Origin: Branchiostoma floridae
Taxonomy: Eukaryota; Chordata; Leptocardii; Amphioxiformes; Branchiostomatidae
Reading direction: 5' to 3'
DNA length: 64,000 bases
Assembly (NCBI RefSeq): GCF_000003815.2
Contig: NC_049983.1
Span: 2,641,007-2,705,006, forward strand
The notes under the pieces are model-generated. The model did no database searches. It was not told the DNA's origin and worked only from the letters and a program-made list of their open reading frames with translations. The stretch's first letter is position 1, and each line of letters opens with the position of its first letter. Shown here piece by piece: positions 5,237-43,991 of the stretch. The position numbers were made by a program, and so were the translations under genes.

Positions 5237-5552
5237 ACAGGGGAGTCACCATCCTAGGATTGATGTGTTCAAAAATTCGTATTTTCCCAGAACTATCGTA
5301 GAGTGGAATTTTTTATCACCGATCACAGTAGGGGCATCTTCTCTGAATAGCTTCAAAGAGCGCTTGCAGATAGATGTGCAAAAGTTAAGTGTGACGGGTC
5401 GTCCGGATTAATATAACCAGCTGCTGCCGCGCCACGTGCCCGCGAAGCTGGTGTGTTACGCCGAACGGCGGTTATACCGGCTATATAGATACAGATACAG
5501 ACACAAATAGATGGATGGATGATTAGATGGATATCATGATAGATAGATACTG
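5237..5552 (+). mobile_element. LINE ORF2 C-terminus and simple-repeat tail
   Basis: After the satellite the LINE frame returns: SHHPRIDVFKNSYFPRTIVE and SLNSFKERLQ match the family's closing 'FFPRTI..WN.L' block, ending in a stop near 5412. A GATA/GATG-rich tail (~5476-5552) closes the element, 50 bp before the first recognised exon of the FN3-like gene. Confidence 0.85.
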
Positions 5553-5602
5553 GGCAAATGGACCGGTAGATATCATATTAAAATTGTGTGACCTCTTTAC
5601 AG

Positions 5603-5706
5603 ACGTCCTACCATGTTGACCACCAAGGAGGTACAACAAAGACTCCCGGTGCGTGGACCAATGTGGATGATCTTCACACAGGGTCACAATCACTTACCAT
5701 CTCCAG
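5603..5706 (+). CDS. FN3-like gene, exon 1 seen
   Basis: Acceptor TTTACAG, donor GTGGGT; enters phase 0, leaves phase 2. Encodes half a module (SYHVDHQGGTTKTPGAWTNV). No start codon, so it is an internal exon. Confidence 0.75.
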
Positions 5707-8700
5707 GTGGGTGCACCTTAGTGTAGAGTAACTCCATGAGCCCAGTATGAAGAGTTCCTCGTCAGCTATCTGAAGTTTTAATTTGTCGTTTCTCATGAAA
5801 AAGTAAAGAGGGCGGCCCTGTGTGTCACAATTACGCCGGTGCCCGTCATGCTTTGCAGGGCTCGAAAGCCAAAAGGCCGGATACCGTGGGGGTACCTCTG
5901 GGCATTTTCACGGGTAGGCCTTGGCATCTATCTGTCGCCAGGTCTGGGCTTATTTTTACTCCGACTTTTACCAAATCCGGGCGCGGCAGTACCAACTATA
6001 GCCCGGTAGCCACAGTGTATCCCACGGGGCCTCGTAGCGGTCACGCGCGCCCGAAAGGGCTCCAAAACAGAGCACATAAACTACCCGGAAGAGTTCTTTT
6101 TCCTGCTGTCACGGAATCATGTGGAGACTTTAGGCGTTAACCCTATTCAGACCGGGGGGGGGGGGCTTTTGAGGCAGTTTTGCCAAAAATCACTATTTTT
6201 GGTTCTAGCAATGTATTTTTCACATTTATTTGTTATATTACTGCTATTTTGTTACATAAATAAAATCTTGTATTATCTAGCATATCTTTCATAATTATAT
6301 ATGCATAAATTATGCTAATTTGATGACGTCATCAGCCCAAAATCCAAGATGGCGGACCGTATGGCCAGATCAAGAATAACAAGCTAATTATCCCTTAAAA
6401 TTTGTAACTACCTGGTATTTTTTTCATCAAAAACCTTCTAAATGAATGAATTTAGTCTATTTAAATTGCCCTTTGTGATTATTTGTAGCAAAAAAAAGTA
6501 TTTTTAAAAATTCAAGGTGGTGGATATAATATGGCGGAGCCCAACTCGTATCTTGGATGTGCATGACGTCATTTTATGACGTCATTTTGACGTCATTGAT
6601 GTTGCTATTGCCAACACAAGTCGTTCTTAACATTATTATTTTGTTATTGTTACATTTTTGTAGCATAACTTGAAGTTTTCTGAGAATACCCTTTTTTCAT
6701 GTGTTCGACCAATATAATTTTTTTTTTGTATCAAATTGATGACGTCATTATTACGTCACCTTACGTCAACATAACGTCAAACGTCAAATACTTGTCAGAT
6801 ATTATGTCGAAATCACGTCCTGAAAATTTAGTGGCCCTACGGCACGTCGTTAAAGAGTTATAGGACTTATAAGAGTTATAGAAGTGGAGGGCCTCAAAAG
6901 CCACCCCCCCCCCCCCCAATCCAGGGATGACCAAAAAAGCCCGGACTGAATAGGGTTAAACTGGGGTGTCAAAGGCCGCACAAGAAAACACCGAGCAAGA
7001 AGAGTAGGGATGACGCGGTATGCTTGACTATAGTTAAACCACGTTGTACTATCAGCTCCCAACGTTTGAAGCATTACGCTTCGAGTTCAACCTTTGAGAA
7101 GCATGATGAATCTGTGAGCAAGACTTTGAATTCTTTTCATTTCCTCTTCCAGAGTTGATGGTGACACTGTGACGACCTACATCAGAGCCACTGACATCCT
7201 GGGCAACCAACAGACCGACAATGTAACCATCCACATCGACAGCACTCCTCCAATCATCGAAGACTTCTGGCTGGAGAAGAACGGCGTGGAGGGCATAACT
7301 GTCCACAATTCCAGAGATCTTTATGATTGTCTGTAAGCCACAAAACACAGTCTTGTATGGCAGATAAGATTTGTGAAAGGTCACCATTGTAATTGATCTC
7401 AACTTACATAGCTGTCATACTTTACAGTACTGTACAAAGCGTTTTTACCTTGGCGGTTAGAGCAATTGATCACACAACGCTCACAGTTTCTGTTCCTACT
7501 TTTCTTCAAAGCTGAAGCTAGCAGCCCATTTTACTGCCGATTAAAATCTTTTTTCAGCAGCCTATTCGTCAACGAGATTCATCGCTGGTGTGGAGATATG
7601 AGTAGAACCTCGACACCAAGACCAACGTTTTATGAGATCTTATTTCATTGGTTACAGGGTAAAATTCACGACATACGACATCCACAGCGGTCTGTACACC
7701 ATCTACTGGCGGTTAGTGAACATGGCGGACGAATCCATTGTCCATGGGGACGGCAACTTGGCCGTTCGCGTCTCATCCGTACGTCATTTACAACCTAGTC
7801 TATGATACTGTTACTAGTGTAAAAATCATTGTGTACCTTTCCCATACGATGTTCTCCCGTGTATCGCAACGTTATCAACGAGAATTTGAATGGATGGACG
7901 ATCCAATTCCATGTCAATCAAGAGATTAAGCAAAGTTCCCTAGCTAAGTCTTGTACACAACGAAACGTTTCGGTGAGAGTTTGTCATCTTCATCATATGA
8001 GAATACAAACAGGTTCTACTGCTAAGGCATTTTCAAACCGGGGTCTTATTTTCTAAAATCTGTATGTACACATTTCTACTTTTCAGTTCCGCAAACAGCC
8101 TGAACAGGCCACGTTTTGAAAATGTGAAGTAAGACTAAGCGCTGCACCTAAGTGTTAAGAGTTTTACAAAAATTATGATTATCTTTCAAAGGACGCTGAG
8201 CCTTGTACAGCGGACACCTGTAAGTGTACCCCCATGGAACCCTGCTACATGACCAAGTACGAGATAGCGCCTGACGCCTCCAAGATGGACATCCCCATAG
8301 GAGAACATGACAGCGACTACTACTTCTTCGTCACCGTCACAAACCGTGCTCGACTGTCCACCACTGAGAGACTACAGGTCAATATGAAATGTTCACTACT
8401 GAATGATTTTATAAAGCCTTTACGCAAACTAATATGCAAAAAAATTGTTATATAATATCTATTTATGTAACCTATATATATATATATATGTATTTCTGTT
8501 TTCTCCATCAGTGGCTAAGCATTGCTTTTTAGAGAGGCCATGGAATCACACGTGGAAACAACACAATATTTACATAGCAAAAACATAATCTTCAAGTTAT
8601 AAAAAAAGATCGCATCCTTCTCATAGTCTTTATCCGTGCCAAGTCATAATGGGTAGAGGTAGAGTCAATTCCACATTACCAAGAGGGTGTTTCTTGTCTT

Positions 8701-11700
8701 TTGTTCCAACATTTTGGAAATCTTTATAACATTATAATTGTGATAAGTAACTGTTTAGAACTGTTTATAACATCATTGTGATGTTCTAAATATTTTCTGC
8801 AGTATTTAAACATGTTAGAAACATTTATAACATAAAAGTCATTATTTCTGATAGTTTCTAAACTGTTCCAACATAAATTCATCATTTGTGATCACATGTG
8901 ATCACATGTTCGAACATGGAAACAAAATGATGAAACTGGGTCAGTGGGCTGGGAAGAGTGCAATTCACACATCCCTGCCAAGTACAGGAAATTGTGTCTG
9001 TCTCACAGCCTCTCACAAAAGAGTCACCAGTGTCTACTAAGAAAGTCTAAAAATACAAGACCCAAACAAAGGGCTCAGCTTAGCAGCTTGGTTTATGGGG
9101 GTAATAAAAGTTTTTTTGGAGGGAAAAAATAACACAAATTGTTGGAACATATGATCACATGTTCCAACAATAACAAAAACACATAGATGTTTCTAAATTG
9201 TGCTAAATAAAGAGATATTTGTACCATTACTTTCCCAATCTTTCCAACATATCCAGATAGGTTCAACCATGTTCAAACTTTCATTTTCAAATGTTTGAAC
9301 AATTTAGAACTTTAGTGACTGAAATATTCTTTTACTTAGAATAGTTCAAACTTAATACAAATATTATTTCAAAACCCTCTTGGTGAATCGGAATCGACTC
9401 TAAGAGGTCACACAATTATCTTACACAGTGTTTTTATGTGGATGAAGCGGTTATTACATCTAGTGGGAGTAAGTTTCAGACCAGCCAACAAGCCAACTTG
9501 TTGAATAAGGTTTGAAAAATATAAGTACTAATGTGATGTGTCTTTTAACAGATTACAGTTGACATCAGTCCTCCCGAACCGGGCCACGTCTCAGACAACT
9601 ATGCCGGTCAAGCTGATATAGACTTTCAGGTAAGGTGATACTTCAATGAAAACAAACAAAAAAAGAAACGAACAAAACATAAACATGTAAACAAAACAAT
9701 AAATATAGGCACAAACAAACATTAATAAATTCAAAAGTGTAAATGAATCATGACACTTATCCCCGCCTACCTTATAAAGGGATTGTAAAGATAAAGGTAA
9801 ACCTCTGACATGAAAACTAATAGACATGTTTTAAAAGCTTAACATATACGTGATAAGATAATAATAATATGACAATAATAACAATAACTTCATTGCAAGA
9901 TTATTATCCCGAGTGCTAATTGCAAAGTAAGAGAGTGGTACTATAGTATACATAGCAAAGAAATGTTTATTTGTGAAATGTAATCTATTTTCAATCTATG
10001 TCTATGTTTATTTAAACTATCTGAGCTGTTTTACTTCTTTTCGTATGCAATGAATGGGAGACGAATTGTCCAACAGTTTTGTATATAAACGGGTTGGACG
10101 TATGTATATGTGTTTCAGAGTGATCCAAACATGCACTTCAGCTGGGAAGGGTTCTTTGATCACGAGAGCGGCGTGAGGAGTTATCAAGTGTTCTTTGGCA
10201 CTCGTTGCGGGCTCCCAGGTGACTTCGGCATCCCTGTGCCTGATTCGGTAGGCATGGAATAATTTATGCCACTAGAGACTTAGCATGGAAGTTCATCTGT
10301 GTTGCTTAAATGACATTATGGATAAACGAGACTTTAACTAACCAACACTACAAATAGGTTGAGACTTATCTCAAATTTTAACGAAATGGACCGGTCTACT
10401 TTAGCTTCCGAAACGTGACGTCGGAGACACGTTACTGCAGCAGAGGGTCGTAAATGCTGGATAACCTATGTCGCCCCCCGTCTCTACTCAGTGATGGACG
10501 GAGGGCGTGTATGTACACGACTTCTTCCCTCCTCTTACAAAGAATTCCGGCGTTGAATCGAGGATCTTACCTAGAGACTTATAACATGTAGATAGAATCA
10601 CTGATAGAGTGTAACACTAGAGACTTATAAAATGTAGATAGAATCACTGATAGATTGTAGAATGTTCAGATTGTAGGCATGAGCAGAATTTCTATAAAGA
10701 GTTCTTGAGGTGTGATCTTGATGTGCAATATTTTCCAGACAACAGAAAAGACGACCACTGAGCTACAACACAGCTTCACGGCCTCCTCCCCCGGCACGTA
10801 CTACTGCACCGTGGTCGCCTTCAACCGCGCCCTGTCTGCCTCTGAACCGGTGTGTTCTGACGGAATCCTGTACGACACGTCTCCACCCTCCATAACCAAC
10901 ATCGTCATAGAGAACATCCGGGCAAGGACGGGAGCAATCAAAGATGGCGGCGGGAACGTCTGGATGGTGGATGACCAACTCAGAAAGGTAGCCGTGGACG
11001 GTCCATCGTCTGCGTGCAGGTGCGATTTTGGGTTCCTTTCCTACCTTATGTATCGACTATCACGTAGTAAAACGCACTGTTATCTGTATTCTCTCTCTTC
11101 TGTACTTTTCATCTTGACGGACGATTAGTCCACATGGACTCGGCGATGTGCAACCAGACCGGCCCGACTCCTGCACAGTCTGCCACAGGTTGAGCACGTG
11201 AAGGCATTTGTTGTGCATGGATTCTGGCTCTTTTGCGCTTTCTAGCAGCTCCCTTCGTCTCCAATTGGTTTTCAAGTTTCTTGGCCCCTTGATGGAGTTT
11301 GTGTCGCCATGCTGCGAGGTCGTGGGCTAGGTGCCCCCAGTCAGATCTTTTACTAAACCATTTTGCGTTTGCGTAGGTGACGAAAAGTGTAGTGGTGGGC
11401 CTTCTTATCTTGACTCCTTGGGGGCCCCAAGAAAATTACCACTGGGCAACCAGAGAAGTAGGTGAAGGTGTGTTGTTGTGATGGTCGTCCGTGTTGCAAA
11501 TTCACAGGTCAGCGGCCAGACAGGTTGCCGACCCCGCTATCTTCACCGATCGCCCTACGGTAAACGTCAACTCAGATTTAAATGACGACCCAGAAACCGT
11601 CAGGATGGCCTCGTCTGCGGGATGTGAATCAGATGGAGCTCTTGGATCTCCGTTTTTCATGATTGTTGACAAGCATGTGAGTATGCGGTTGATCCTTTTG

Positions 11701-14700
11701 TGTAGACGGTTAGTGTTTTATTTGCAAAATCATGCTAACTAACTGTATCTACAGTCTCAAAGACAAAGTAAGAGCAAAGTAATTGAGTACATCACACTAG
11801 TTTATAATCAACTACGAGAGTGGTTCAAAAAGTTATGTCACTAGTTTTATAACAGGCTCATTTTTTAATCGAATAAGTTGAAATTTGGCAAAAAGGTAAA
11901 GGCATATTATCCTCTTGAGATTAAAATATCTCAATTTGTTGTTCCGATTTTTATGAGCAATTGAGTTGATTTAATTTCAAGAGGAGATCACCTCAGGAAG
12001 CTTGTCAGAAGATCATTTCCTCTAGATCTGACCTTTTTTAAACTACTGTAGGAAGTCGATATTACGATACCTGTATAATAACAAATGTCTCTATAGGTCA
12101 CATGTTAATTTTCATTTCTGAACTTCCAATGGTTCATCTTTTTCAGCTGCTAGAAAGGAGCAAGCTACTATAAAATTAAAGACAGTTTGATTTATAGCCA
12201 AATACGAGATTTATTTATTAAAGCTTTTGTAGACTGCTTTTCCATTAACCAAAAGATACGAAGCTTGGCACAATTATTGGCTGTTTGAAGACCAAGAAGA
12301 GTGCAAAGCTTGATTTCTTTCAATTTATTAAAAAGTCTACTACGGAAACTTTAACGTCACTGATGACCGCGGTCATACCTCACTTCACCCGAGGAACGAA
12401 AAAAAGAAAACTTGATTGGATTTAAAAAGCTAAAAAAATTGGCATGTGCATTGTGGACAAATGGAACTTGATACATGTGTCTTTTAAGTTTCATACTATA
12501 GCTACAAGCGAGTCAGGAACATTTTCAATTGCACATTAATTGAACCTCTAATTTCTTTTGACGGGATAACAAAGGTGTGGTCATCTTGAACTCAACCTAG
12601 TCACTCATAAAAACTTGGAAAAAAATTGAGATATCTCAATCTCAAGAAGATAATCTGCCTTTACCTTTGTGCTAAATTTGAACTCATTGAATAAAAAATG
12701 AGCCTGTTATAAAACTACTGACATTACTTTTTGAACTACCCTCGTATAAGGTCTTGCGTTTACTATTGTTGGGTTTTATTTCTTCCTTGACGGCAATTAC
12801 ACAGTGAAACGGGTTCCGCAGGGAATAGTTTTGGGACCATTACTCACTATAATACAGGGGTGAATGAAAAAGTTATTTCTGAGTTAAGATAAAAAGGTTC
12901 AAACTTACGATAATGTGACGTTTTTTTCCCAGCTGGCAACCCCTATACAAATTTAAATGGTTATAAATCACTGTAACCTCTTTTGTCCCAGTTGCTTGTC
13001 TACTGGAACGGTTCTGACGGAGAGAGTGAGATAAACGACTACCAGGTCGGCCTGAGTTCTACTGAATCTGGTGCCTCCAGTCCAGACATCATGCCTCTCA
13101 CCTCAACTCAAGGACACACCGTCTTCAAGACAAGGTATGAACAATTGAGAGGGTGTTCATAGACATAACTGTCCCGTTTCGGATCCATTCATTTCTCGAC
13201 GTCTAAAACGCAGGTTTAACAATTCTATAGAGCTTTACTTAATCTAGACTATTGCTAATTCTTATAAGTAATGAATTTCCCCCCAATAAAGGCATTCTGG
13301 TCTGGGCGAGGGACAAGAATTCTACCTCGGTGTAACGGCGACAAACAAAGCAGGCTTGTCTACCACAAAGGTAACTAACGTACGGTATACTGACCTTACT
13401 GTCCAACGACTGGCTCGTTAGGAACCTTCAGTTAATCAGCCTAGGTGGACGTGAACGATGTCCTTTCTGAACTCTTTCCTATGTTGAATAATTTGCAACA
13501 ACGAGTTAATGCCATGATATTTGTTCTAAACATACCGTACGCATCTGTCTCTGTTCAGAATTGCCATTAATACGTTTTTACTCAATGAATCAATTATGGC
13601 ATTAACTTTAACAGGTTTTTTTTCAATTTTCAGACTATTGGACCGATCGTAGTTGACGCAAGGCCCCCCACGTTCTCAGGCCAGGTGACAGTGACGCTGG
13701 AAGATGACTACCTCGTGGCACGATGGCCGGCTAACGGGTTTTCCGATGACGAGGATACCGATTTGCTCACCTACGAGTGCGCCGTCGGTAAGAGGTTTTG
13801 GTATCTTTTCGACTACAGGTCTTCGAATTCCTGGAATGAAGGGACTACATCAATGCCGATACGTCAAAATGTGGCATATTAAGCCCTAATTGAGGAGGCA
13901 GACAGGTTACTGAGGCAGATAGGTTACTGTGCGGTCACATAGGTTGTGCGATCATTGTACGATCGCCAAATTTCGAGCATTTTGAGACAAAAATGTACGT
14001 CTCCTGCAAAGTCTTCGTATACGAAATGCTATCTGTCTTGGATCCTTGTCGGTGGGTGGTTCTGTCAGCTTGAAAATCAAAATCGTACGATGATCGCACG
14101 ACCTATATGACCGTGCCCTTAGCAAAAATTTGGCAACAAAAATTGTTTGTATAGCTAAGAACTCAGTATATAATATCACCGATTGTGCTAGTTCTCAAGC
14201 AATGCTGCATGAACAATCACGACTCAACATAAGTAAATAATTCTTAATAATTCTCGTACCAGTACTGGTCGCGAGGGTGATTAAGGATTAAAGAATTGAG
14301 AATTACCTTGTGAATTGAACTAATGCTAGAGTTTGTCCATTGCCATTGGTTAGGTCACGAGGCTAACAGAGAGGACATCTTGGAGTACACAGCCTTGAGT
14401 AGCGTGGGTCCGTGTGGGGGCGTCACCGGCTGCACAGCCATTCACAGGGACAGTCTACAGGTATACCAGAAAACTACATATGAACCCCCTATATACAGAT
14501 AACAAATCATTCATTCCTGTATTCAAGAGAACTACAGTGTAGCAGAACTATAGTGTAGTAAATGTGACACTAGTGCGGTACTCTGGTATCGCTTACTGTA
14601 GCATGCAAGTCGGCAACTTACACTCATGACTTCCATAGTGGTGCCACTTTTGCAACTATCCAGTCAGTTTCACTTGTACAACTATTGCCATGGCAACAGT

Positions 14701-35700: not shown

Positions 35701-38700
35701 CTGGGCATATGATAGACATTTTGCATATATCTATAGCTGGATCTTATAACGTGATTAGGACGCTGGTTGACGCGCTACTTGTTCCTTAAAGGTTGGATAC
35801 TGGAAGGCGACTCTGTGGTACGGCAGATCTCCTCCTTACCTACTGATGACTTCCAGACGAAGCACGGACGTTCTCATCTCCTTCTTCATGGCAGCATGTC
35901 TCAGACTTTCACCACTGTGGCAGGTATGTCATACCATTCATACTGATTGGTTGGTCATTTTTAAATCAACCAATCAGCAGTTACAGATGATACATAATGG
36001 AAAAGACCAACATGCACGTAAGTAAGTTGATTAGCCGGATCGATCAAACTGAAGGTGTGAATAACTACTAGTAGTTAGAGCAGTAGGCTATGCAGCGTAC
36101 TTGCATTGGATTTCTGCAATTCATATTTGTTTGCTATTTATACAGCTCATCATGGTCATATTCACATGTAGGCAAGTCTTTATAATGTGTTTGTTCTGAT
36201 ATCAGATCAAGAATACAGGATCTCCTTCTTTGTAAACCATGACGCGACGACGGACGTTCCCCGCCTGACCCAGGAGGGTTTGCTGACAGCGCCAGGTCTT
36301 CATCAGGTCTTCAAACTGCGGAACAGACAGGTGTCAACTGTCGACACCACCTCTACAGAGCAGTGGGACACTTGGCAAAAACAGATCTACTACTTCACTG
36401 CTGTCGGCACTAGTTCAAGTGTTACCGTCCAATCTGTGGGGACGAAGACAGGGATTTCTCTGGATAACTTTAAGGTAGGTCATCATCATCTTATATTGCC
36501 GCTCAACTGACGGTCTGCAATGTAAGCTTCTCGTAGGTCGATGTCGGAACAGGCTGGGACAAGTTCACCGTTCTGTAGAAGGTTTGGTGGCGTTTGAAGC
36601 TTACACACATACCTGTGGCGTTATCTTATTTAGAAAAGCGTGAAGGTTGATTTATCTATTTATTGATTGATTGATTGATTGATCTCCAGGAGTTGATTTC
36701 CAAGGGGCTCACCATATGAATAGCAAAACAAAACGTGTTACATTCAGTAAGATAATCAGAGGACAGCAAACAATATATAAGGTATCCTATATGTGTCATA
36801 ATAAGAATTCCTTGTATCAAAACCACAAACACACACAGGNNNNNNNNNNNNNNNNNNNNNNNNNNNNNNNNNNNNNNNNNNNNNNNNNNNNNNNNNNNNN
36901 NNNNNNNNNNNNNNNNNNNNNNNNNNNNNNNNNNNNNNNGGATCCAGAGTCTCCTATTGTGGACTACTCCTGGGCAATTGGAACTACTAGAGGTAGGATT
37001 AAAACACACAAGCTTTGAAGAAACTATTTTTTTGAATTAGTGCCGTACTTATATGACTGGTTTATTTCGAAATTCAACATTCAACTGACACTGACATGGC
37101 AGCCACACGGCTGAATTGCGACACGTAGTTACAATACGCTACAAATAAAGTGATTAAAAAACGATTCAGCTCAGTTCATCCTCATTGCAATAACACAGTT
37201 CTTAAAGAATCGTTGCAGAAGGACAAATTAAAATAGTATCTGGATAAAACATTTGAAATAGTATTTGTTTAACATAGTGATATCACTATATCGCAGAGTG
37301 AACAAATATTTAAAATACACAATGCCTTACTATCTGATAAAAAACATAAGTACACAGGTGGTAATCACTTGTTCAAAAGGCGGACTATATTAGGGTGTAG
37401 CGCTGTTTCGATAGAGTTCAGTGCTACAGCGAGTAGTATTCAGTTTACTTTTAACGGCTTGTTTGCAAAGTCAATTTTTTACAACATTACTAGATAACAT
37501 GTGGTATCTGTTTGTATGTACGTTACTGAGACACATTGTTAAATTTTTCAAGGTGGAACCCAGCTGCAAGGGTTTGTGCCCCTCGGAATTCAGGAGAGTG
37601 CTCGGAACAGCAATTTGTTCTTACAACACGGTTCCTACGTATACGTCACTGTGGTGGCCACCAATGCTGCAGGACTGTCGGCAGGTAAAGTCTTTACCTT
37701 AAAGTTTGTTTCCTGACGAAATTGTAAGGTTCAGATCACATTTATTTCTTGTTATCGCATTATTGGAACACACGGTATACAGTACGGCAAAAGTCAAACC
37801 ACTAGCACGTCCAGGAAACAAATATAAAAGAAATGGAGGTTCAGCTGCAGTATCAAGGTCAACTTGGAGGTTTGTAATTAAAATTATATCAAATATATCA
37901 CATATCAAATATTATTACAATACATTCAGAGCCCTAACATAAAGGTATGCTGACCACAAAAAAATCCGGCACACGAGCATACCCACAACCACAGAGACAA
38001 TCATCATCATCATTAATCATCCTCTATGAGGTGCAGCAAGTAAAGCTTGTCTTCCAGAACAGTCTGTCTTTCATCGCGGTGAGAAGTTCCAGGCCATCCA
38101 GACCAGTTTCTGACTCAATAAGTTTCTTCAAAGTTAGCCTTGGGTGACCAACATGTTTCTTACATAAATCAGGTGTCCAGAACAAGAGTTTTCCGGCTGG
38201 CTCCGGGGCCACATGGCCGACAAGGAGTAGTCGCCGTTGTTTAATATATATATATATATATATATATATTTCATGGAGGTAATGAACACTGTATCATATT
38301 CCTTTCAGTGCTTTACTCCGACCCAGCGCTGGTGGACCTGACTCCACCGGTCATAGGAACGGTTCTGGACGGGTCTGAGCAGGATTCAGTCGACCTTGAG
38401 TACCAGAACAGTGACGTCATCTGTGCCCGCTGGCCTGATGTCGCCGACGACGAGAGCGGCATCAACTACTGTGAATGGGCTTTAGGTGCGTTACGTTTAG
38501 GTACAGAATTCTGACACAAAAATATAGTAATGGCATTAATGTCAAAACTGGCTAGCCAACCGCCTGGCATAGCTAACTACCACAACATTAAAACAGTCCA
38601 TGCAATCTCACATAGTTAAAATCCTCATGTCTGGATCCATTTTCGTCAGTCCTTTGAATTCGTTGTTGAGACCAAGTTTGACTGTACATTGTATCTTCAA

Positions 38701-41700
38701 TGCGCAAATGAATATAACATTTGTAAAGATGCTTGGTGTGGTGCTTGATTTCTGATGAATTCAGAAGTAGAACATGACGTGATGCTTTGTTTCTGATGAC
38801 TTCTGTTGCTTTGCTCACTCGGTAGTTTATTTAGTGGTTATAGAACCATGGCTTTTGACACCATATACACTACAGGGTGGGTCAGTAAATCCTGTTGTGC
38901 CAATGTTGCAAACGTACCGTGCCTTGGATTGTAAACTCAGGTACATCCTCACACCTGGCCAACCTGATGAGGTTCACCACAAGCTACATCGCGGAAGACG
39001 GAAAGTCAGCCTGTATTGACTCGTCTGGGTTCATCGCACATGGAGCCAAGGTCTACGTCATCGTGCGTTGTCATAACAACGCCGGACAGGTGGGTGATGG
39101 AATATATTTCTCAAGGCAACCGGTACGCGTTGCAATGGTGAACGTTTGAGGTACAAATGTATGGCCATGAAGGTTGAAAACATACTCTATTTAGAGTATG
39201 GCCATGAATGTTGAAAACATACTCTATTTAGAGTATGGACATGGAGGTTGAAAACACCCCATTGACAATGGTTTAGCGAGTGACAGTAGTGGTATGTCTT
39301 ATACCAAAAGGCATAAGAAACGAATCCGGAGATGGACGCCTAACCGAATCTAATGGTAACCATTTCCACACGTCAAAAAGGGGAGTTAGTAGGCAACATT
39401 TTACTAAAGGACACAGCATTAAGACCAGAAGTTTGATTTGATACGTAAAGATTCCTAACTAGGAGACAACCTTGTCGCCTCTTTATTCTACAGTCTGCCA
39501 CAGCCAGCTCAGACGGAGTGGTCCTGACCTCTGTGCCCCCTAGTATTGAGCACGCCTATGTCACGGTTGTGATCGAGCCCGTGACTCAGTACGCACCCAG
39601 GAACCACTACCAGTACTCCCCGGACAAACTGCACATCGCCTGGGGAGGGTTTGTGGACCCGTCCGGTATCCAATACTACGAGGTAAAGTTCTGCTTCAGA
39701 CGTATAATAATAATAATATCTGCTGTATTTGCAGTCTCCATGTACCCAATATTTGGGTAATGAGGCTGATTAACGTGGTTGAGGCGCTTCCTCGAGCACG
39801 CGACCCCCATTTTACGTATTTTCCGAAAGACAAATTCGTGAATCCTTGGTCGGGCTACAGTATCCGGTCTTCCGTGGTGGTCTCCCATCCAAGTACGTCC
39901 GAGATCGAGAGGATCGGGTGTATCATCGCACCACACGGCATATACATTTACTATTTACAGGAGATAAACCATGACATAAAGCTTATTAAAACGTATCATT
40001 TTCAATGAAGAAGTGTTATAGTAAGTGTCAGAATTTCTCTGAATACCAACTGTGTACTGTGACGTCTCACCTTCGCCCACGACATTTCTTTCATTTAAAT
40101 ATCTCGATAGAAACAGTAACCCTTCACCATGATACTTTATTTTGATCTGCATGTATTCAAACAAAACGACAAAAGTACAACAACAGGTAGTGCGCGTAGT
40201 CCAGTGGTTAGCGTCCTTGCCTCTGGAACTAGAAGCCGTTCGATCCCGGCTATGTCGCTCACCCGACATGCACGCTACCGGAAAGGGTTGCAGTCCTTAG
40301 GACGGGACGTTACCTTAAGCCGTGGTCCAATGTTCATTGTGCTTGTTTAAAAGAGCTAGGGGAATTTCCCTGGTACAATGAACCTGTGAATACTGTACAT
40401 AGCGTCTGTCCTCTCTGTCACGAACAGCGGAATACTAGCTCTTCAGTGAGATAAAACTGGTTCGAGATCACTTTCACTTTTACAAAAGTACAATAAATTT
40501 CCTAAGGTCTAAACTATACGTACAGTTAAGTAAACAGACATATGTGGATATCTTAAGGTATGAATAGATTGACATATAGGAACTTATGCTTTGCGAGCTA
40601 AGGCTGTTCTATTTTGTAAATAACAATGCTATTAGAATACACCTCTATTTCGTCATCTTTGGAACTGTTTTTTTTTACTTAATGGTGTCCACGTAACAAG
40701 ACCTGAAGGCCACTCAAGGTTACGGGTTACATAGTAACTCTAACAGCATCTCTTCTCCCTAGGTCAGAAACATCATGATTGAGACAAGCCCATTGCTCAC
40801 TATGAGCGAGGAACAGCTAACCCAATAGGCGAAGCATGGGTTACAAGGGCTGCACGGGAGATTCCCTACTCCATTTTGGCCGGAATGGTTTGAACCACTC
40901 ACACCGCACCATCGCACATGTGGCGGGTTCTTTGATTGTTGCTCCCCCCAAACACGGGACCTCCATTTAACGTCCTAGCCGAGCGACGGCCCTAGCCAAA
41001 GATAGCCTCATTTTCACCTGAGTAAAGTGGGAAAGTCGTGTAAAGTGCCTTCCCCAAGGGCACAAGATCGGTAACACGGCAGCCGGATCTGAACTCGAGA
41101 CCTCTCGGTCCTGAGCCCAACACGCTGCCGCTGCGCTAAGCGGTCCCACGTAGTTTACTATTTATCATCATAATCCTCGTATCATCTCTTTAGTACATGG
41201 TCGAGGGTCCAGACTTCACCTCAGCATGGCAGGAGGTGTCCTGGACAGGAGAGCACACGGCGACCCTAACTGACCTGCAGCTCGTTCCCGGGGCCACCTA
41301 CATCGTCAGTGTCCGGTCTGTGAACTTCCTGGGGATGCAGAGTGACTCTGTCTCCACGGAGGTCAACATCGCACTGCAGGGGAGGCCTTCTGCCAACCGT
41401 AGGTTTAATTTTATCATCGCATAAAGATTATACTTTCTGGTTATTAAAGGAAAATATGTAGAGGACGTCAAGAGCGTCGATACCAACTTCTATGGTAGAA
41501 AGTAGGATTTGGCGTTAGGAAACTTAGTCATTTTTCAATCACACAGAGCACAAATCGTATCATAACATCGAACTTGAATGGGGACTGATTTTATGACAAG
41601 AGGCCATTCGTCTGCTATGTTTTGCCACCGGAGACCTATCGCGTCATCACTAGCAATGTTTCCTCTCTTTTGCGTGGAAAAAGTTCTGAAAATCATATCG

Positions 41701-42556
41701 ATCCAAACATGTGTGACACAACAGATAAGGTACGCTATTGTACAAAAGGTAGCCATGCAAACTTAATACAACAATACAATGCACATTTTCTCAGGTCACC
41801 TGCAACTATCGTGGGAAGAGCAAGGCAAGATGCTGATCAACTGGGAGGGTGCCTTCGGCTCCTTGAATGCTGGTAAGTTGCGAGCATATTAAAGTGCATC
41901 TTCCTTCCATCGTCTTGTTGCGTCTTTCAGTGCTGTTTACCTCCTGATATAAACATTGTGTTGTGCTGCCCACACCAGCCTATGTAGCTAGGTGGTTGAT
42001 TGTTATATAGAAAATTATGATAACTTGTGGTCTTCTAAATCATGATTGATGCCATGCTAGAATCATACTTTAACTGTTTTTATTCAGATCTGTACTACGA
42101 AGTGTCAGTGGGTCTGGTTGAAGGTGGCAGTAAGGCTGGTCTCTGGTATGAGACAAAGCAGACCAACATGACTGTGTCCAGTCTGGATCAGACAAAGGTA
42201 CACTACATTTATATCTTCAAGGATTTCCTGCTGAAGGCAATATCAAAGAAATATACATATAAAGAATACAATCGACATCTTTGACCAGAAATAACACATC
42301 TAGTTATAATCCGAATTTAGTGATATTGACAAGTTCACAAGCTTAGCGAATGGAAAAGTAAGGATGCTTGGAAAATAGATTATAAGGGTTTTCGACGATA
42401 GAACTCTGCTATTTATTTGGTTTCCGTAGTCCCCGTATCGTTTAAAGAGAATAATCATTGAAGGTATGCCTTTCATTGTTGTTTCAGGAGTACCACATCA
42501 CTGTCAATGCCATAGATAGCGCTGGCATGTACATCACTATAAAGGGCCACGTGTAA
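5603..42556 (+). CDS. Giant FN3-like multi-module extracellular protein gene, 52 chained exons
   Basis: Seen: 52 exons with AG/GT borders join in one frame without a stop (the N gap excepted), about 8,230 coding bases, ending with TAA at 42554-42556. The protein repeats a ~100-residue module: W-x-GF-D-x-(E/D)SG...Y-E-W-A-(I/V)-G, then a Leu-rich strand, G-x-x-YYV-x-V-x-A-x-N-x-A-G, then (S)DG..VDT-PP..G.V.DG. This fits a fibronectin type III-like fold; about 20 modules are present. Exons 41-43 hold a jelly-roll module. Inferred: a secreted or surface adhesion or matrix protein. No signal peptide or membrane segment is seen; the 5' exons are not in the window or not recognisable. Most modules span two or three exons, with introns mainly in phase 0 or 1. 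The exact family name needs a search. Confidence 0.85.
5707..6136. other. Intron stretch without recognised feature
   Basis: A GC-richer segment with a 106-codon chance frame lies here; its product has no recognisable motif and no splice support. It is taken as intron of the FN3-like gene. Confidence 0.5.
6141..6955. mobile_element. TTAA-flanked piggyBac-like MITE (family A), copy 1
   Basis: Perfect TTAA on both sides (6137-6140 and 6956-6959); terminal inverted repeat CCCTATTCAG(A/T)CCGG; poly-G/poly-C next to the ends; no ORF of note; interior rich in TGACGTCA words. TTAA duplication and a CCCT terminus are known piggyBac traits; mobilisation by piggyBac is inferred. Confidence 0.92.
7153..7332 (+). 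CDS. FN3-like gene, exon 2
   Basis: Phase 2 to 2. Encodes VTTYIRATDILGNQ and the module linker IHIDSTPPIIEDFW. The preceding intron carries the TTAA MITE. Confidence 0.85.
7658..7778 (+). CDS. FN3-like gene, exon 3
   Basis: Phase 2 to 0. Encodes TTYDIHSGLYTIYWRLVN, an 'SG..Y.W' strand pair. Donor GTACGT. Confidence 0.82.
8192..8377 (+). CDS. FN3-like gene, exon 4
   Basis: Phase 0 to 0, 62 codons. Has four Cys in CTADTCKCTPMEPC and then DYYFFVTVTNRARLSTT, the module's closing strand. Confidence 0.85.
8462..8490. repeat. AT dinucleotide microsatellite
   Basis: A short TATATA run in the intron after exon 4. Confidence 0.85.
8662..9400. mobile_element. MITE with TA duplication
   Basis: TA at 8660-8661 and 9401-9402 flank inverted ends GAGTC(A/G)ATTCC...CCAAGAGGGT. 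The interior is AT-rich with TGATCACATGTGATCACATG palindromes and many GTTCTAAA/GTTCCAAC words. TA duplication suggests a Tc1/mariner-type origin. Confidence 0.8.
9552..9629 (+). CDS. FN3-like gene, exon 5
   Basis: Phase 0 to 0, 26 codons. Carries the linker VDISPPEPGHVSDN and ends ADIDFQ. Confidence 0.82.
10119..10247 (+). CDS. FN3-like gene, exon 6
   Basis: Phase 0 to 0. Encodes FSWEGFFDHESGVRSYQVFF, the typical first half of a module. Confidence 0.87.
10571..10662. repeat. 46-bp direct duplication
   Basis: Two adjacent copies beginning CTAGAGACTTATAACATGTA, differing at a few bases, in the intron before exon 7. Confidence 0.85.
10739..11019 (+). CDS. FN3-like gene, exon 7
   Basis: Phase 0 to 2. 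Encodes GTYYCTVVAFNRALSASE, then SDGILYDTSPPSITNI and a non-modular segment (VWMVDDQLRKVAVDG). An earlier donor at 10989 would break the frame with exon 8, so the GTGCGA donor at 11020 is chosen. Confidence 0.85.
11128..11480 (-). mobile_element. LINE ORF2 C-terminal fragment with C2H2 finger
   Basis: On the minus strand the frame reads LAHDLAAWRHKLHQGAKKLE and then AFTCSTCGRLCRSRAGLVAH followed by RRVH: a Cys-x2-Cys-x12-His-x3-His finger at the very end of the ORF. Some lineages of LINE ORF2 end this way. It lies in the intron between exons 7 and 8. Confidence 0.78.
11508..11676 (+). CDS. FN3-like gene, exon 8
   Basis: Phase 2 to 0. Encodes a segment unlike the module (QVADPAIFTDRPTVNV, then SPFFMIVDKH); in-frame between exons 7 and 9. 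Confidence 0.8.
11815..12744. mobile_element. Tc1/mariner-like MITE with ~130-bp inverted ends
   Basis: TA flanks at 11813-11814 and 12745-12746. Ends CGAGAGTGGTTCAAAAAGT and CGAGGGTAGTTCAAAAAGT are inverted and stay similar for ~130 bp. No transposase is seen in 930 bp. Confidence 0.88.
12803..12852 (+). mobile_element. Tiny reverse transcriptase relic
   Basis: KRVPQGIVLGPLL corresponds to the SGVPQG.VLGPLLF block of LINE RT; neighbouring sequence is unrecognisable. Confidence 0.5.
12992..13134 (+). CDS. FN3-like gene, exon 9
   Basis: Phase 0 to 2. Encodes LLVYWNGSDGESEINDYQVG, the module's W and Y strands. Confidence 0.85.
13292..13370 (+). CDS. FN3-like gene, exon 10
   Basis: Phase 2 to 0. 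Encodes GQEFYLGVTATNKAGLSTTK, a near-consensus closing strand. Confidence 0.85.
13634..13787 (+). CDS. FN3-like gene, exon 11
   Basis: Phase 0 to 1. Linker IVVDARPPTFSGQV, then LVARWPANGFSDDED and LTYECAV. Confidence 0.87.
13930..14117. mobile_element. Short foldback MITE
   Basis: Inverted arms of about 33 bp, GTGCGGTCACATAGGTTGTG at left and its near-complement ending GACCGTGCC at right, around ~120 bp. It lies in the intron after exon 11. Confidence 0.65.
14354..14460 (+). CDS. FN3-like gene, exon 12
   Basis: Phase 1 to 0. Encodes SSVGPCGGVTGCTAIHRDSL with a Cys pair. Confidence 0.8.
14899..15072 (+). CDS. FN3-like gene, exon 13
   Basis: Phase 0 to 0, 58 codons. HSYYVSVKAKDFVGLTTVAT closes one module; GEPTAGVVEDI starts the next. 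Confidence 0.87.
15073..15706. other. Intron with two diverged direct repeats
   Basis: Segments near 15107 and 15400 share ATTGCTTTCGG-type sequence and a GGCAGAAAGTGAG-like follow-on; possibly TE debris. No gene is seen. Confidence 0.4.
15707..15901 (+). CDS. FN3-like gene, exon 14
   Basis: Phase 0 to 0, 65 codons. TLSARWSGVLHEHQDISYQV and GAGTSPGATDVVGFTSVG follow the module consensus closely. Confidence 0.88.
16166..16480. mobile_element. Family A TTAA MITE, left-half relic
   Basis: Begins TTAA then CCCCTACCCAGACC, followed by the same order of interior words as the copy at 28674 (CTTTTTTG.CATTCCTG, TGACGTAA, GTATACCCAGAAAACTTCAA) but is cut off before the middle; diverged. Confidence 0.72.
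16497..16626 (+). CDS. FN3-like gene, exon 15
   Basis: Phase 0 to 1. TYYITVKASNSIGDTAVTSD, then GITV and EVMDGQECS. The preceding intron ends in a decayed TTAA MITE. Confidence 0.87.
16856..16884 (+). CDS. FN3-like gene, 29-bp micro-exon 16
   Basis: Acceptor ATTTCAG, donor GTACGA; phase 1 to 0; encodes (D)QHDEIYQIQ. It is required: joining exon 15 directly to exon 17 puts a stop eight codons in. It lies ~50 bp before the Helitron-type element. Confidence 0.65.
17160..17700. repeat. 163-bp tandem array (Helentron core)
   Basis: The word GGC(C/T)CCTGTACC recurs at 17182, 17345, 17508 and 17671, a constant 163-bp step; units share AAATGAGCTGAAATTTGACA and GATGTGCCTTGATAAT. Confidence 0.93.
17676..19050. 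repeat. ~620-bp tandem duplication within the Helentron
   Basis: Two diverged modules start at ~17676 and ~18297, each ordered: GGTATAGATAGGCAT.AGATA, AGCCAATCA, AATATTCATAAGCG, GATAATCG.AGCAGTCACTTA, and TGTTGACGGTCT. The second has a G/C-rich insert at ~18640-18730. Confidence 0.8.
20106..20391 (+). CDS. FN3-like gene, exon 17
   Basis: Phase 0 to 1, 95 codons: CYDTSPSIYQTSKTAVAAHW, then a diverged second half ending YKSKVLFCHQAGCFAP. Confidence 0.87.
20873..21117 (+). CDS. FN3-like gene, exon 18
   Basis: Phase 1 to 0. Linker FLVSPDPPLPGTLHVSSP, then VMNFYDWAIADDSENGKL. Donor GTTAGT. Confidence 0.85.
21612..21783 (+). CDS. FN3-like gene, exon 19
   Basis: Phase 0 to 1. LTKCLSLVVRGHAHTGLSAS is the closing strand; QCEETSTNRGL replaces the usual linker. 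Confidence 0.84.
21870..22335 (-). mobile_element. LINE C-terminal fragment
   Basis: On the minus strand, VTRLRITCHKLHIETGKHTR then, after a frameshift, LEQRLCKYCNLDRIEDERHF: the cysteine-containing C-terminal block found in some LINE ORF2 proteins. Truncated and frameshifted. Confidence 0.65.
22636..22865 (+). CDS. FN3-like gene, exon 20
   Basis: Phase 1 to 0. DIDYTNETTMLSAVWPTLRH and KYEWAVLEDKSVSS give the module's W and Y-E-W strands. Confidence 0.87.
23000..23838. other. AT-rich intron without recognised feature
   Basis: Only AT-rich sequence and a few short GGTAAAATGGTAAA-type repeats near 23450 are seen between exons 20 and 21. Confidence 0.5.
23839..24051 (+). CDS. FN3-like gene, exon 21
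   Basis: Phase 0 to 0, 71 codons. LSLEQNKRYIVCIHAEE and the linker SSGVTVDVTPPNADAADVW. Confidence 0.88.
24408..24513 (+). CDS. FN3-like gene, exon 22
   Basis: Phase 0 to 1. LFVQWDGFIDVEEHGVSMHH, then IQRYEYAIG across the splice. Confidence 0.87.
24737..24853 (+). CDS. FN3-like gene, exon 23
   Basis: Phase 1 to 1. TIAGGSDVQAWTDVG and LQHGWSYYATVTA. A palindromic MITE begins 9 bp after its donor. Confidence 0.87.
24863..25092. mobile_element. Palindromic MITE (GCATGTGCGGCGACAGG family), copy 1
   Basis: Arms of ~85 bp start ATAAGCCTTCTCACAATAGT and are inverted at the right end; they include GCATGTGCGGCGACAGGAAT and AGGTAATATGTC. A ~60-bp loop separates them. Confidence 0.88.
25285..25455. 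mobile_element. Palindromic MITE family, copy 2
   Basis: Shares GACAGGAATTGTGGGTAAT, the CTTGATTTGCATAACAAT loop and the inverse TGACATATTACCCACAAT; outer arms are lost. Confidence 0.72.
25516..25651 (+). CDS. FN3-like gene, exon 24
   Basis: Phase 1 to 2. VDFVGLSTTK and linker RVTVDTTPPRKSDTHI. Confidence 0.87.
25849..26058. mobile_element. Palindromic MITE family, copy 3
   Basis: AGCCCTCTCACAGACATCAG and ACGCATGTGCGGC at left, inverse GCCGCACATGTGTTCTGATC and GATAGGGCT at right; interior matches copy 1 (ACCCGTCTGG, ATCGAAACAATGGTC). Confidence 0.8.
26379..26559 (+). CDS. FN3-like gene, exon 25
   Basis: Phase 2 to 0. WEGVFYDTESGVSFFEWAVG matches the consensus; ends HEYYVSIK. Confidence 0.9.
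26749..27016 (+). CDS. FN3-like gene, exon 26
   Basis: Phase 0 to 1. VVVETSPPEAGNVYDG, NDIDYQDDVTTIHAHWDGFY and IVSYTWSVG; a whole linker plus first half. The end of this exon is duplicated in the next intron. Confidence 0.9.
26986..27229 (+). repeat. 123-bp tandem duplication spanning the end of exon 26
   Basis: CTTGCTCCACAGAACGTTGG (26986) recurs as CTTGCTCCACAAAACATTGG (27109), and the following CTAACATTTACTTGAAACTC and GGCGACGCCTCAGGAGTGGT recur too. In the second copy the donor GT has become GA, so it is not usable. Confidence 0.92.
27256..27442 (+). CDS. FN3-like gene, exon 27
   Basis: Phase 1 to 2. LTPGETYYVTVTACNAADLC and SDGVIPDDSPPVAGRVLDG: the textbook module end. Confidence 0.9.
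27555..27669 (+). CDS. FN3-like gene, exon 28
   Basis: Phase 2 to 0. LAAHWYGFNDPHSGLSHYEW and RAGTTPGGSDIVG. Confidence 0.9.
27856..27973 (+). CDS. FN3-like gene, exon 29
   Basis: Phase 0 to 1. LSLPVNTMIYITVKAYNRVG closes the module. Confidence 0.88.
28176..28375 (+). CDS. FN3-like gene, exon 30
   Basis: Phase 1 to 0. FRVDTSAPTVTTAVHF linker, then a diverged strand region (VKIRWRFDDSESLVVDQHVS). Confidence 0.86.
28455..28640 (+). mobile_element. tRNA-derived SINE-like copy
   Basis: CCCGAGTTCGATGC resembles a pol III B box; downstream GTTGTACCCTTTGGAAAC, ACACTTCGACC and TCACCCAGGTG parallel the minus-strand SINE at 40.8-41.2 kb. The A box is decayed. Confidence 0.6.
28674..29619. mobile_element. 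TTAA-flanked piggyBac-like MITE (family A), copy 2
   Basis: TTAA at 28670-28673 and 29620-29623; ends CCCTATTCAGACCGGG and CCGGTCTGAATAGGG. The interior parallels copy 1 in reverse orientation, including CCAAGATGGCGGACC-like and TGACGTCAT words. 946 bp, no ORF. Confidence 0.93.
29640..30490 (-). mobile_element. LINE ORF2 C-terminal region (zf-RVT-like)
   Basis: A 178-codon minus frame (29920-30456) ends a LINE ORF2: GHGRPAVRLTSLRLDFSQLN, then HHCITSPTCKCG and ETTEHYLLHCELYNSE, the Cys/His block (zf-RVT type) that follows the RT in several LINE groups. It is open at its upstream edge (KAWKILPMNKTTGL) but has no RT; 5'-truncated. Confidence 0.82.
30773..30901 (+). CDS. FN3-like gene, exon 31
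   Basis: Phase 0 to 0, 43 codons. LALDDGNNYVAKVIGCNNAR is the closing strand; a SINE, a MITE and a LINE lie in the intron before it. Confidence 0.86.
31161..31373 (+). CDS. FN3-like gene, exon 32
   Basis: Phase 0 to 0, 71 codons. VDSSKPLTGHFAV linker; LKLAWLGFSDYHSGIDRLMV. Confidence 0.88.
31480..31747. other. Intron segment, unassigned
   Basis: GC-balanced sequence with ATTCGGCCGAAAGCTCGTCGAC, a word partly repeated near 35210. Likely an old repeat; no coding evidence. Confidence 0.35.
31749..31818. repeat. 21-bp tandem repeat at a splice acceptor
   Basis: Three copies of a unit like ATCATGTTGTACATATATAC end about 10 bp before the acceptor of exon 33. Confidence 0.92.
31828..31974 (+). 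CDS. FN3-like gene, exon 33
   Basis: Phase 0 to 0, 49 codons. YSTLYISLWAING is a closing strand. Its acceptor follows a 21-bp tandem repeat. Confidence 0.85.
32116..32170 (+). pseudogene. Decayed copy of the start of exon 34
   Basis: TTCCTCACAG followed by GCTGGTTTGGCAAGACGTG mirrors the true acceptor and start TTCCTTACAG/GCTGGGTTGGCGAGTACCG at 32309. Similarity fades after ~20 bp; the reading frame is not compatible with the chain. Confidence 0.45.
32309..32492 (+). CDS. FN3-like gene, exon 34 (Cys-rich)
   Basis: Phase 0 to 1. Contains a compact Cys cluster, RRCDAHSCYGHCICAPFNQN plus two later Cys; likely disulphide-bonded, unlike the FN3-like modules. Confidence 0.85.
32591..32772 (+). 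CDS. FN3-like gene, exon 35
   Basis: Phase 1 to 0. AYTYSTCALAANWREATIG and PYRYEWSAGIS. The GTTAGT donor at 32773 is chosen because it keeps frame with exon 36. Confidence 0.86.
32908..33004 (+). CDS. FN3-like gene, exon 36
   Basis: Phase 0 to 1. LVYDRVWYDVGLETSAVLTL. Confidence 0.83.
33216..33346 (+). CDS. FN3-like gene, exon 37
   Basis: Phase 1 to 0. LEVGVSYVFYVRAWYTDNIY closes a module; LRADQTPPKRSSS is the linker. Confidence 0.86.
33482..33644 (+). CDS. FN3-like gene, exon 38
   Basis: Phase 0 to 1. DSLSVSWEYVFLDAINSGND and HFELSLGTYPG. Confidence 0.86.
33758..33964 (+). CDS. FN3-like gene, exon 39
   Basis: Phase 1 to 1. SLQSGKTYYTSVRAYNHAGL and SDGVMVDTVAPTAGVVFDG; near-consensus. Confidence 0.9.
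34346..34549 (+). CDS. FN3-like gene, exon 40
   Basis: Phase 1 to 1. VVSASWHGFNDLDSGIDKHF and NIMGWTDTGL. Confidence 0.9.
34860..35382. other. Intron before exon 41, no clear feature
   Basis: Contains CGATCTTCGGGCCTATCGATGG and similar CG-rich words suggestive of an old repeat; nothing nameable. Confidence 0.35.
35383..35559 (+). CDS. FN3-like gene, exon 41 (module end and jelly-roll start)
   Basis: Phase 1 to 1. QRYYTKVKGQDAAGHQSP and SDGFLVDTSPPIPEANLQIG, then NLLINPSFEDAVDGGEG, the opening signature of carbohydrate-binding-like jelly-roll domains. Confidence 0.9.
35792..35923 (+). CDS. FN3-like gene, exon 42 (jelly-roll)
   Basis: Phase 1 to 1. GWILEGDSVVRQISS, HGRSHLLLHGSMSQTFTTVA: the 'GW..EG', 'G...L.L' and 'Q.F.T' strands of a galactose-binding-like fold. 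Confidence 0.88.
36206..36474 (+). CDS. FN3-like gene, exon 43 (jelly-roll end)
   Basis: Phase 1 to 0. QEYRISFFVNHDA, DTWQKQIYYFTAVGTSSSVT and GISLDNFK complete the jelly-roll ('Y.ISF', 'F.A', 'LD.F'). Confidence 0.88.
36840..36939. other. Assembly gap, 100 N
   Basis: Exactly 100 unknown bases, the usual placeholder for a scaffold gap of unknown size. It removes the start of exon 44. Confidence 0.99.
36940..36992 (+). CDS. FN3-like gene, exon 44 (5' part lost in gap)
   Basis: Open from the gap edge: DPESPIVDYSWAIGTTR, leaving in phase 1 with donor GTAGGA. The missing part should carry the module linker and the 'W.GF' strand. Confidence 0.85.
37553..37684 (+). CDS. FN3-like gene, exon 45
   Basis: Phase 1 to 1. 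GTQLQGFVPLG and GSYVYVTVVATNAAGLSA. Confidence 0.88.
37999..38225 (-). mobile_element. LINE ORF2 3' end with ATG-repeat tail
   Basis: On the minus strand, LTLKKLIESETGLDGLELLT and AMKDRLFWK resemble the 'RP..TLK..I..DTGL...EL..AM.DR..W' close of LINE ORF2, followed by a GATGATGATGATT tail. 5'-truncated. Confidence 0.68.
38242..38270. repeat. AT dinucleotide microsatellite
   Basis: About 14 TA/AT units, 39 bp before the acceptor of exon 46. Confidence 0.9.
38309..38485 (+). CDS. FN3-like gene, exon 46
   Basis: Phase 1 to 1. LVDLTPPVIGTVLDG, VICARWPDVADDESGINYCE. Confidence 0.9.
38941..39089 (+). CDS. FN3-like gene, exon 47
   Basis: Phase 1 to 0. FIAHGAKVYVIVRCHNNAGQ is the closing strand. 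Confidence 0.87.
39161..39256. repeat. ~45-bp tandem repeat
   Basis: Two and a half copies of GGCCATGAAGGTTGAAAACA plus TACTCTATTTAGAGTAT in the intron after exon 47. Confidence 0.88.
39494..39682 (+). CDS. FN3-like gene, exon 48
   Basis: Phase 0 to 0, 63 codons. SDGVVLTSVPPSIEHAYV, KLHIAWGGFVDPSGIQYYE. Confidence 0.9.
39852..39945 (-). pseudogene. 5S rRNA-derived pseudogene or SINE head
   Basis: On the minus strand, CCCGATCCTCTCGATCTCGG, then GTACTTGGATGGGAGACC (the 5S box C region), then ACCGGATACTGTAGCCC follow 5S rRNA order. About 20-25 nt between these blocks (including box A and the GTTAAGC region) are missing, so it is not a functional 5S gene. A 5S-headed SINE (SINE3-like) is an alternative. 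Confidence 0.72.
40187..40490 (+). mobile_element. tRNA-derived SINE
   Basis: A box TAGTCCAGTGG and B box GTTCGATCCC are spaced as in a tRNA, inside GTGCGCGTAGTCCAGTGGTT...; a ~230-bp non-tRNA body follows. Inserted in the intron between exons 48 and 49. Confidence 0.82.
40790..41150 (-). mobile_element. tRNA-derived SINE, minus strand
   Basis: On the minus strand: GACCGCTTAGCGCAGCGGCA (A box TAGCGCAGCGG), TCGAGTTCAGATCC (B box), then TTGTGCCCTTGGGGAAGGCA and CTTTACTCAGGTG, a body shared with the copy at 28455. It ends 43 bp before exon 49. Confidence 0.82.
41194..41398 (+). CDS. FN3-like gene, exon 49
   Basis: Phase 0 to 1. LQLVPGATYIVSVRSVNFLG, a classic FN3 G-x-x-Y strand. A SINE ends 43 bp upstream. 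Confidence 0.88.
41795..41872 (+). CDS. FN3-like gene, exon 50
   Basis: Phase 1 to 1. HLQLSWEEQGKMLINWEGAF. Confidence 0.82.
42088..42197 (+). CDS. FN3-like gene, exon 51
   Basis: Phase 1 to 0. LYYEVSVGLVEGG and QTNMTVSSLDQTK. Confidence 0.85.
42488..42556 (+). CDS. FN3-like gene, last chained exon with stop
   Basis: Phase 0 entry. EYHITVNAIDSAGMYITIKG then HV and TAA. An alternative donor GTAAGG at 42553 would bypass the stop, leaving in phase 2, which does not fit the next EGF exon directly (phase 1). Confidence 0.7.
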   Translation, partial: EYHITVNAIDSAGMYITIKGHV

Positions 42557-43817: not shown

Positions 43818-43991
43818 TGTTAGATAACAGGAAGATCTATTATACTGGCCATAGGTGGTCCTAGCTAGGACAGGGCCAGCCCACATGTGTTTCTGATTGG
43901 AGTTCAATAAAGGGACAGACCACAGTCTGTCCACAATCAGTTCTGACCAGGCAACCACAGAGTGAACGTCTCATCTTATTCTACTCTAACA
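43818..43991 (+). mobile_element. Short LTR (174 bp) of an LTR retrotransposon
   Basis: Starts TGTTAGA and ends TCTAACA (inverted TG...CA ends), contains AATAAAG (~43909), and is followed at once by CTGGTGGCAGC, the kind of primer-binding site used by Ty3/Gypsy elements. No second LTR is found. Confidence 0.62.

Follow-up and report, generated by a model that had tools for sequence, protein, structure and literature searches.

A 51-exon chain encoding an array of FN3-like domains in a 64,000-nucleotide stretch of Branchiostoma floridae DNA

Results

The exon chain

We describe a long chain of exons in a 64,000-nucleotide stretch of the Branchiostoma floridae genome (contig NC_049983.1, positions 2,641,007 to 2,705,006; hereafter the window, in whose coordinates all positions are given). 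The window has a base composition of ~41% G+C, a single gap of 100 N and many short frame-consistent exons. A chain finder combining splice-site and codon scores joins such exons on the plus strand from 5603 to 42556 into a frame-consistent series that closes with a TAA stop codon at 42554-42556. The final chain consists of 51 exons (Table 1), or 52 if one missing exon is counted, and comprises 8,168 nt, which translate into three blocks totalling 2,721 residues. No internal stop codon occurs in the 51 exons over 37 kb. A reading of the DNA made without database searches (the original prediction) had proposed a single modular gene of 52 exons with FN3-like repeats, recoverable from splice phases, and the long phase-readable gene is borne out, with almost the same number of exons.

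The chain finder is a simple dynamic programming procedure with splice-site weights that follow the general animal consensus. Its first codon table was derived solely from a neighbouring kelch gene (described below), and a second, the trained one, was based on exons chosen under a phase constraint. The number of exons in the raw chains varied with the exon penalty and the stretch searched, from 64 to 110; 51 were left once unneeded short exons had been dropped and, for at least seven boundaries, one alternative had been preferred to another by phase and module fit (5706 over 5648, 10746 over 10739, 11508 over 11524, 21783 over 21787, 30901 over 30844, 37553 over 37594 and 39682 over 39665). 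Short exons of the first chains (7561-7587, 10492-10508, 16161-16215, 16411-16421, 22063-22076, 28572-28605, 30426-30442 and 38058-38078), together with further ones of the low-penalty chain, were dropped because the exons flanking them join in phase without them, sometimes with another boundary, and then give a normal module; some of them could still be real. In place of exon 5859-5913 the chain joins 5603-5706 to 7153, and two doubtful candidates, 18634-18727 and 19958-19994, were omitted.

In the final list, 48 of the 49 testable junctions are in frame. The original prediction had held that every junction apart from the gap keeps the frame, which is accurate except for the junction from 16626 (leaving in phase 1) to 20106 (entering in phase 0), where one small exon entering in phase 1 and leaving in phase 0 is still needed. 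The assembly gap cuts exon 43, so the junction into that exon is not among the 49; its visible part continues in frame into 37553. Acceptor phases are distributed as 24 in phase 0, 20 in phase 1 and 6 in phase 2 (n = 50). The count of 48 in 49 is no independent test of the chain, because boundaries were picked by phase and module fit and short exons were dropped.

A cleaner test is to pick exons locally without regard to phase. Adjacent pairs then matched in phase, at threshold 14, in 44 of 51 cases with the trained table and in 22 of 33 with the kelch-only table, compared to an expected share of 0.33 to 0.41 (the upper value being derived from the phase usage of the chain). At higher thresholds the matches were 36/43, 22/32 and 14/25 (trained) and 13/23, 7/11 and 1/1 (kelch-only); we think that the share drops because intervening exons fall out. 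The opposite strand over the same span gave 2/10 at threshold 14 with the trained table and 3/5, too few to tell, with the kelch-only table. The trained table carries a mild circularity, which the kelch-only table avoids. Chain scores with the kelch-only table were 443 on the plus strand and 131 on the minus strand, compared to 46-84 in 10 dinucleotide shuffles; with the trained table they were 879, 188 and 41-73, respectively. The minus strand thus also exceeds the shuffles, by far less than the plus strand does.

The chain lacks its 5' end: an acceptor opens exon 1, and neither a credible start exon nor any other credible upstream exon was found in 1-5602, a segment that contains tandem arrays and a LINE. 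The recovered product is therefore incomplete. At the other end the stop codon falls at the end of a module, with AATAAA signals downstream (Table 1).

Table 1. Exons of the chain and associated features (phase: entering->leaving)
Feature	Position	Strand	Phase	Remark
Exon 1	5603..5706	+	0->2	Half a module; begins at acceptor, no start codon
Exon 2	7153..7332	+	2->2	
Exon 3	7658..7778	+	2->0	
Exon 4	8192..8377	+	0->0	Four cysteines close together
Exon 5	9552..9629	+	0->0	
Exon 6	10119..10218	+	0->1	
Exon 7	10746..11019	+	1->2	Acceptor chosen by phase
Exon 8	11508..11676	+	2->0	Less certain; acceptor chosen by phase
Exon 9	12992..13134	+	0->2	
Exon 10	13292..13370	+	2->0	
Exon 11	13634..13787	+	0->1	
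Exon 12	14354..14460	+	1->0	
Exon 13	14899..15072	+	0->0	
Exon 14	15707..15901	+	0->0	
Exon 15	16497..16626	+	0->1	Frame mismatch at 3' junction
Exon 16	20106..20391	+	0->1	
Exon 17	20873..21117	+	1->0	
Exon 18	21612..21783	+	0->1	Donor chosen by phase
Exon 19	22636..22865	+	1->0	
Exon 20	23839..24051	+	0->0	
Exon 21	24408..24513	+	0->1	
Exon 22	24737..24853	+	1->1	
Exon 23	25516..25651	+	1->2	
Exon 24	26379..26559	+	2->0	
Exon 25	26749..27016	+	0->1	
Exon 26	27256..27442	+	1->2	
Exon 27	27555..27669	+	2->0	
Exon 28	27856..27973	+	0->1	
Exon 29	28176..28375	+	1->0	
Exon 30	30773..30901	+	0->0	Donor chosen by module fit
Exon 31	31161..31373	+	0->0	
Exon 32	31828..31974	+	0->0	
Exon 33	32309..32492	+	0->1	Cys cluster
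Exon 34	32591..32772	+	1->0	
Exon 35	32908..33007	+	0->1	
Exon 36	33216..33346	+	1->0	
Exon 37	33482..33644	+	0->1	
Exon 38	33758..33964	+	1->1	
Exon 39	34346..34549	+	1->1	
Exon 40	35383..35559	+	1->1	Module end, then jelly-roll start
Exon 41	35792..35923	+	1->1	Jelly-roll
Exon 42	36206..36474	+	1->0	Jelly-roll
100-N assembly gap	36840..36939			Conceals 5' part of exon 43
Exon 43, visible 3' part	36940..36992	+	?->1	Mid-module
Exon 44	37553..37684	+	1->1	Acceptor chosen by phase
Exon 45	38309..38485	+	1->1	
Exon 46	38941..39089	+	1->0	
Exon 47	39494..39682	+	0->0	Other chains use donor 39665
Exon 48	41194..41398	+	0->1	
Exon 49	41795..41872	+	1->1	
Exon 50	42088..42197	+	1->0	
Exon 51	42488..42556	+		Last module half; TAA 42554-42556, overlapping possible GTGTAAGG donor
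Candidate polyadenylation signals	43074..43099	+		Two AATAAA (43074, 43094)

The repeated modules

The translation consists largely of modules of ~105 residues each, joined by short linkers that often contain a Pro-Pro pair. A profile built from 16 modules matches the joined translation 22 times, 19 of them at E 4e-4 or better (most matches are training rows), in accord with the ~20 copies predicted. A profile of seven seed modules detected eight non-seed segments of an earlier translation at E < 1e-5; when run against six-frame segments, all 25 of its matches at E < 0.01 fall on the plus strand within 10.1-41.4 kb (many are seed pieces), and its best minus-strand match has E 5.6. Pairwise identity among the 16 modules averages 26% and reaches 40% at most; the duplications are therefore old. 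The linker 'DG..VDT.PP..G.V.DG' of the original prediction is an idealised consensus: the full string has no match, and three looser partial patterns have 6, 15 and 8.

FN3 domains are seven-strand beta-sandwiches characterized by a tryptophan in strand B and a Tyr-x-Val pattern in strand F. The consensus of the 16-module alignment retains VDxxPP, the strand-B tryptophan (W36, conserved in at least 90%) and YYxxVxAxN, with the majority consensus extending to YYxxVxAxNxAG. The Pfam scan was applied to an earlier version of the chain translated in three pieces; fn3 (PF00041) matched the C-terminal 1,095 residues in three stretches (4.8e-11, 43.2 bits vs a cut-off of 25) and reached 22.9 and 15.6 bits, under the cut-off, in the first and middle parts. 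Taken singly, 5 of the 16 modules match fn3 at E up to 0.1, and 2 match Ig_J_second. The 16-module profile was also compared with PDB, and among the best 60 of 145 rows are contactin-2 (1.8e-8), RPTP-delta and -sigma (2.6e-6), fibronectin (5.2e-6) and contactin-4; the top row is titin at 3.2e-16, yet with no single stretch passing alone. By profile similarity, we class the modules as divergent FN3-like domains.

The jelly-roll and Cys-rich parts

Two other elements named in the original prediction, a jelly-roll and a Cys cluster, are recovered, the former at scores below curated cut-offs. The jelly-roll-like part is an insert of 160 residues in exons 40-42, between modules near the C-terminal end. 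It is matched by choice-of-anchor C (TIGR04362; 9.9e-7 over 114 residues, 29.1 bits vs a cut-off of 120), by DUF642 (PF04862; 0.0024, 18.1 bits vs 27) and by a phage spike-fibre domain (4.3e-4, below cut-off). On these profile matches it appears to resemble the DUF642 / choice-of-anchor C type, and it may be a jelly-roll of the galactose-binding kind. The Cys-rich stretch sits between two modules, and the cluster of exon 33 has no Pfam match.

Introns and module boundaries

Twenty module boundaries were placed by hand, and an intron was assigned to a boundary if it fell within 12 residues. Eleven boundaries have no nearby intron, and the remaining nine have introns in phase 1 (five) or phase 0 (four). 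Within modules, certain intron positions occur more than once, among them profile column 51 (three introns in phase 1) and columns 24-25 (two in phase 0). Shuffled modules of animal proteins, FN3 included, are characterized in a passage of a published account as class 1-1, with phase-1 introns at both boundaries (PMC8001218). In the array described here, phase-1 introns lie close to both ends of a single module (at 20391 and 21783), and the other modules do not follow this rule. The pattern would be explained if introns were gained once an old tandem expansion had taken place, or if boundary introns were lost.

Other features of the window

About 10 kb downstream of the chain, an EGF domain exon lies at 52185-52298 on the plus strand (Pfam EGF, 44.8 vs 21.5 bits), followed on the same strand by Cys-rich exons at 53219-53326 and 54163-54272; all three enter in phase 1. 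These EGF-like exons (52-54 kb) may extend the FN3-like gene or form a separate one. A GC-rich, Pro/Arg-rich open frame of 147 codons at 43865-44308 (+) is probably not coding, and a Pro/Arg-rich exon at 43951-44308 was rejected as a last exon. Further downstream, on the minus strand, is the BTB-kelch (KLHL/KBTBD-type) gene mentioned above (56284-57945 and 58434-58862), whose larger exon has KBTBD2 as its best PDB match (1.5e-32) and whose smaller exon was assigned by eye. The window also contains a LINE-type reverse transcriptase at 1772-2725 (+; Pfam RVT_1, 1.9e-37), open frames resembling LINE C-terminal parts by eye at 3740-4117 (+) and 29920-30525 (-), the latter within an intron of the FN3-like gene, and tandem arrays at 1-480, 4267-5222, 17127-17713 and 55686-55937 (period 19, 121, 163 and about 42 bp, respectively). 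Scans of the window found no Rfam family at gathering scores and no tRNA.

Discussion

The chain represents a real, intron-rich animal gene, open at its 5' end. With a probability of roughly 80%, it encodes a long extracellular chain of about 20 FN3-like domains with a Cys-rich stretch and a jelly-roll, which has a rod, adhesion or matrix role. The product is most likely an extracellular rod or an adhesion or matrix protein, another member of the FN3-array proteins, and nothing here marks it as a new kind of protein. The FN3-like domains would fold as beta-sandwiches arranged end to end in a semi-rigid rod, which would serve to space or present binding surfaces, and a partner, perhaps a glycan, may be bound by the jelly-roll and the Cys-rich parts at the cell surface or in the matrix. 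The translated blocks contain 43 cysteines, and their highest 19-residue hydropathy is 1.4; they therefore have no transmembrane-like stretch.

Several observations weigh against this interpretation. Neither a signal peptide nor a start was seen in the chain, and secretion is consequently only inferred. The 2,721 residues contain only 8 N-glycosylation sequons and none of the motifs RGD, KGD and LDV. Four hydrophobic stretches occur in plus-strand frames at 44.5-54.5 kb, and a membrane segment may thus lie downstream of the chain. As to the domains, 11 of the 16 single modules have no fn3 match at E 0.1, PKD is matched by 3 of the 16, and Ig_J_second, a bacteriophage Ig-like family, exceeds its own cut-off on the C-terminal part (28.7 vs 27 bits), so that some copies may perhaps belong to another beta-sandwich family than FN3. 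Sequence comparison with PDB gave no significant match for the jelly-roll (best E 0.42). Finally, there is the frame break between 16626 and 20106.

This break is the starting point for two other explanations. The array could belong to at least two neighbouring FN3-repeat genes, divided for instance at 16.6-20.1 kb, where the sole frame mismatch coincides with the widest exon-to-exon distance (3,479 bp) and with the 163-bp tandem array; against such a division, one module seems to bridge the break, in that a linker-like start ends exon 15 and exon 16 enters the profile at column 21, and we consider separate genes improbable. That the chain is a decaying pseudogene of such a protein, as the out-of-frame junction and what looks by eye like a LINE fragment within the intron at 28376-30772 might suggest, is hard to reconcile with 51 exons free of internal stops whose phases match over 37 kb, and we regard it as very improbable. 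Somewhat less unlikely than either is a gene that passes 42556, in which the donor-like GTGTAAGG overlapping the TAA (donor score 4.2 at 42552) is spliced to the EGF-like exons at 52.2-54.3 kb and the product is a receptor or a longer matrix protein. The EGF exon with its score of 44.8 bits, on the same strand, the two Cys-rich exons and the downstream hydrophobic stretches would fit such a gene, but the donor leaves in phase 2 where the EGF exons enter in phase 1, a chain over 42.5-56.3 kb yielded weak bridging exons only, and the last module is whole at the stop, with AATAAA following at 43074 and 43094.

A more tentative view of the FN3-array product, which we hold to be possible and rather doubtful, is that it belongs to an unnamed animal family in which a giant FN3-like array that did not arise by class 1-1 shuffling, its introns lying mostly within modules in differing places and phases, carries an inserted, perhaps glycan-binding jelly-roll known better from bacteria and plants. 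Literature searches with linker peptides gave one unrelated Cryptosporidium paper, and those on FN3, amphioxus, DUF642 and novel families gave no matching named protein among the matches listed. A 215-residue module pair had no relatives in viral contigs or prokaryote genomes in scans that cover no animal genome, reach close relatives only and are silent on orthologues, and the jelly-roll had none in prokaryote genomes within the same reach.

The analysis shows that a gene of 51 exons can be read by phase alone, and it supplies the exon map of a protein which could easily be overlooked or broken up by automatic annotation. The placement and phases of its introns offer a testable exception to the growth of animal FN3 arrays by shuffling of modules flanked by phase-1 introns.

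Comparison with known proteins

The 160-residue insert aligns to profile positions 43-154 of the 157 positions of choice-of-anchor C, under the curated cut-offs of both this family and DUF642, the latter of which a passage in one published account calls exclusive to seed plants (PMC6651502). Among FN3-array proteins, tenascins resemble the chain in having many tandem FN3 domains and, probably, in being extracellular. Tenascin has an N-terminal assembly domain and EGF repeats, in a part of the protein that the chain, whose 5' end was not found in the window, does not cover, and it ends in a fibrinogen-related domain, whereas the chain has no such Pfam match listed and ends, unless the gene runs past 42556, in an FN3-like module. 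Contactins, RPTP delta and sigma and fibronectin likewise have tandem FN3-type domains, with profile E values of 1.8e-8 to 5.2e-6. In contrast to these proteins, the chain has no PTP, FN1 or FN2 domain listed by Pfam (E up to 1), and it has several weak Ig-like matches, one of them (Ig_J_second) above cut-off. It also exceeds contactin and RPTP in the number of FN3-like copies, and it differs from contactin, RPTP and fibronectin in carrying the jelly-roll and Cys-rich stretches inside the array.
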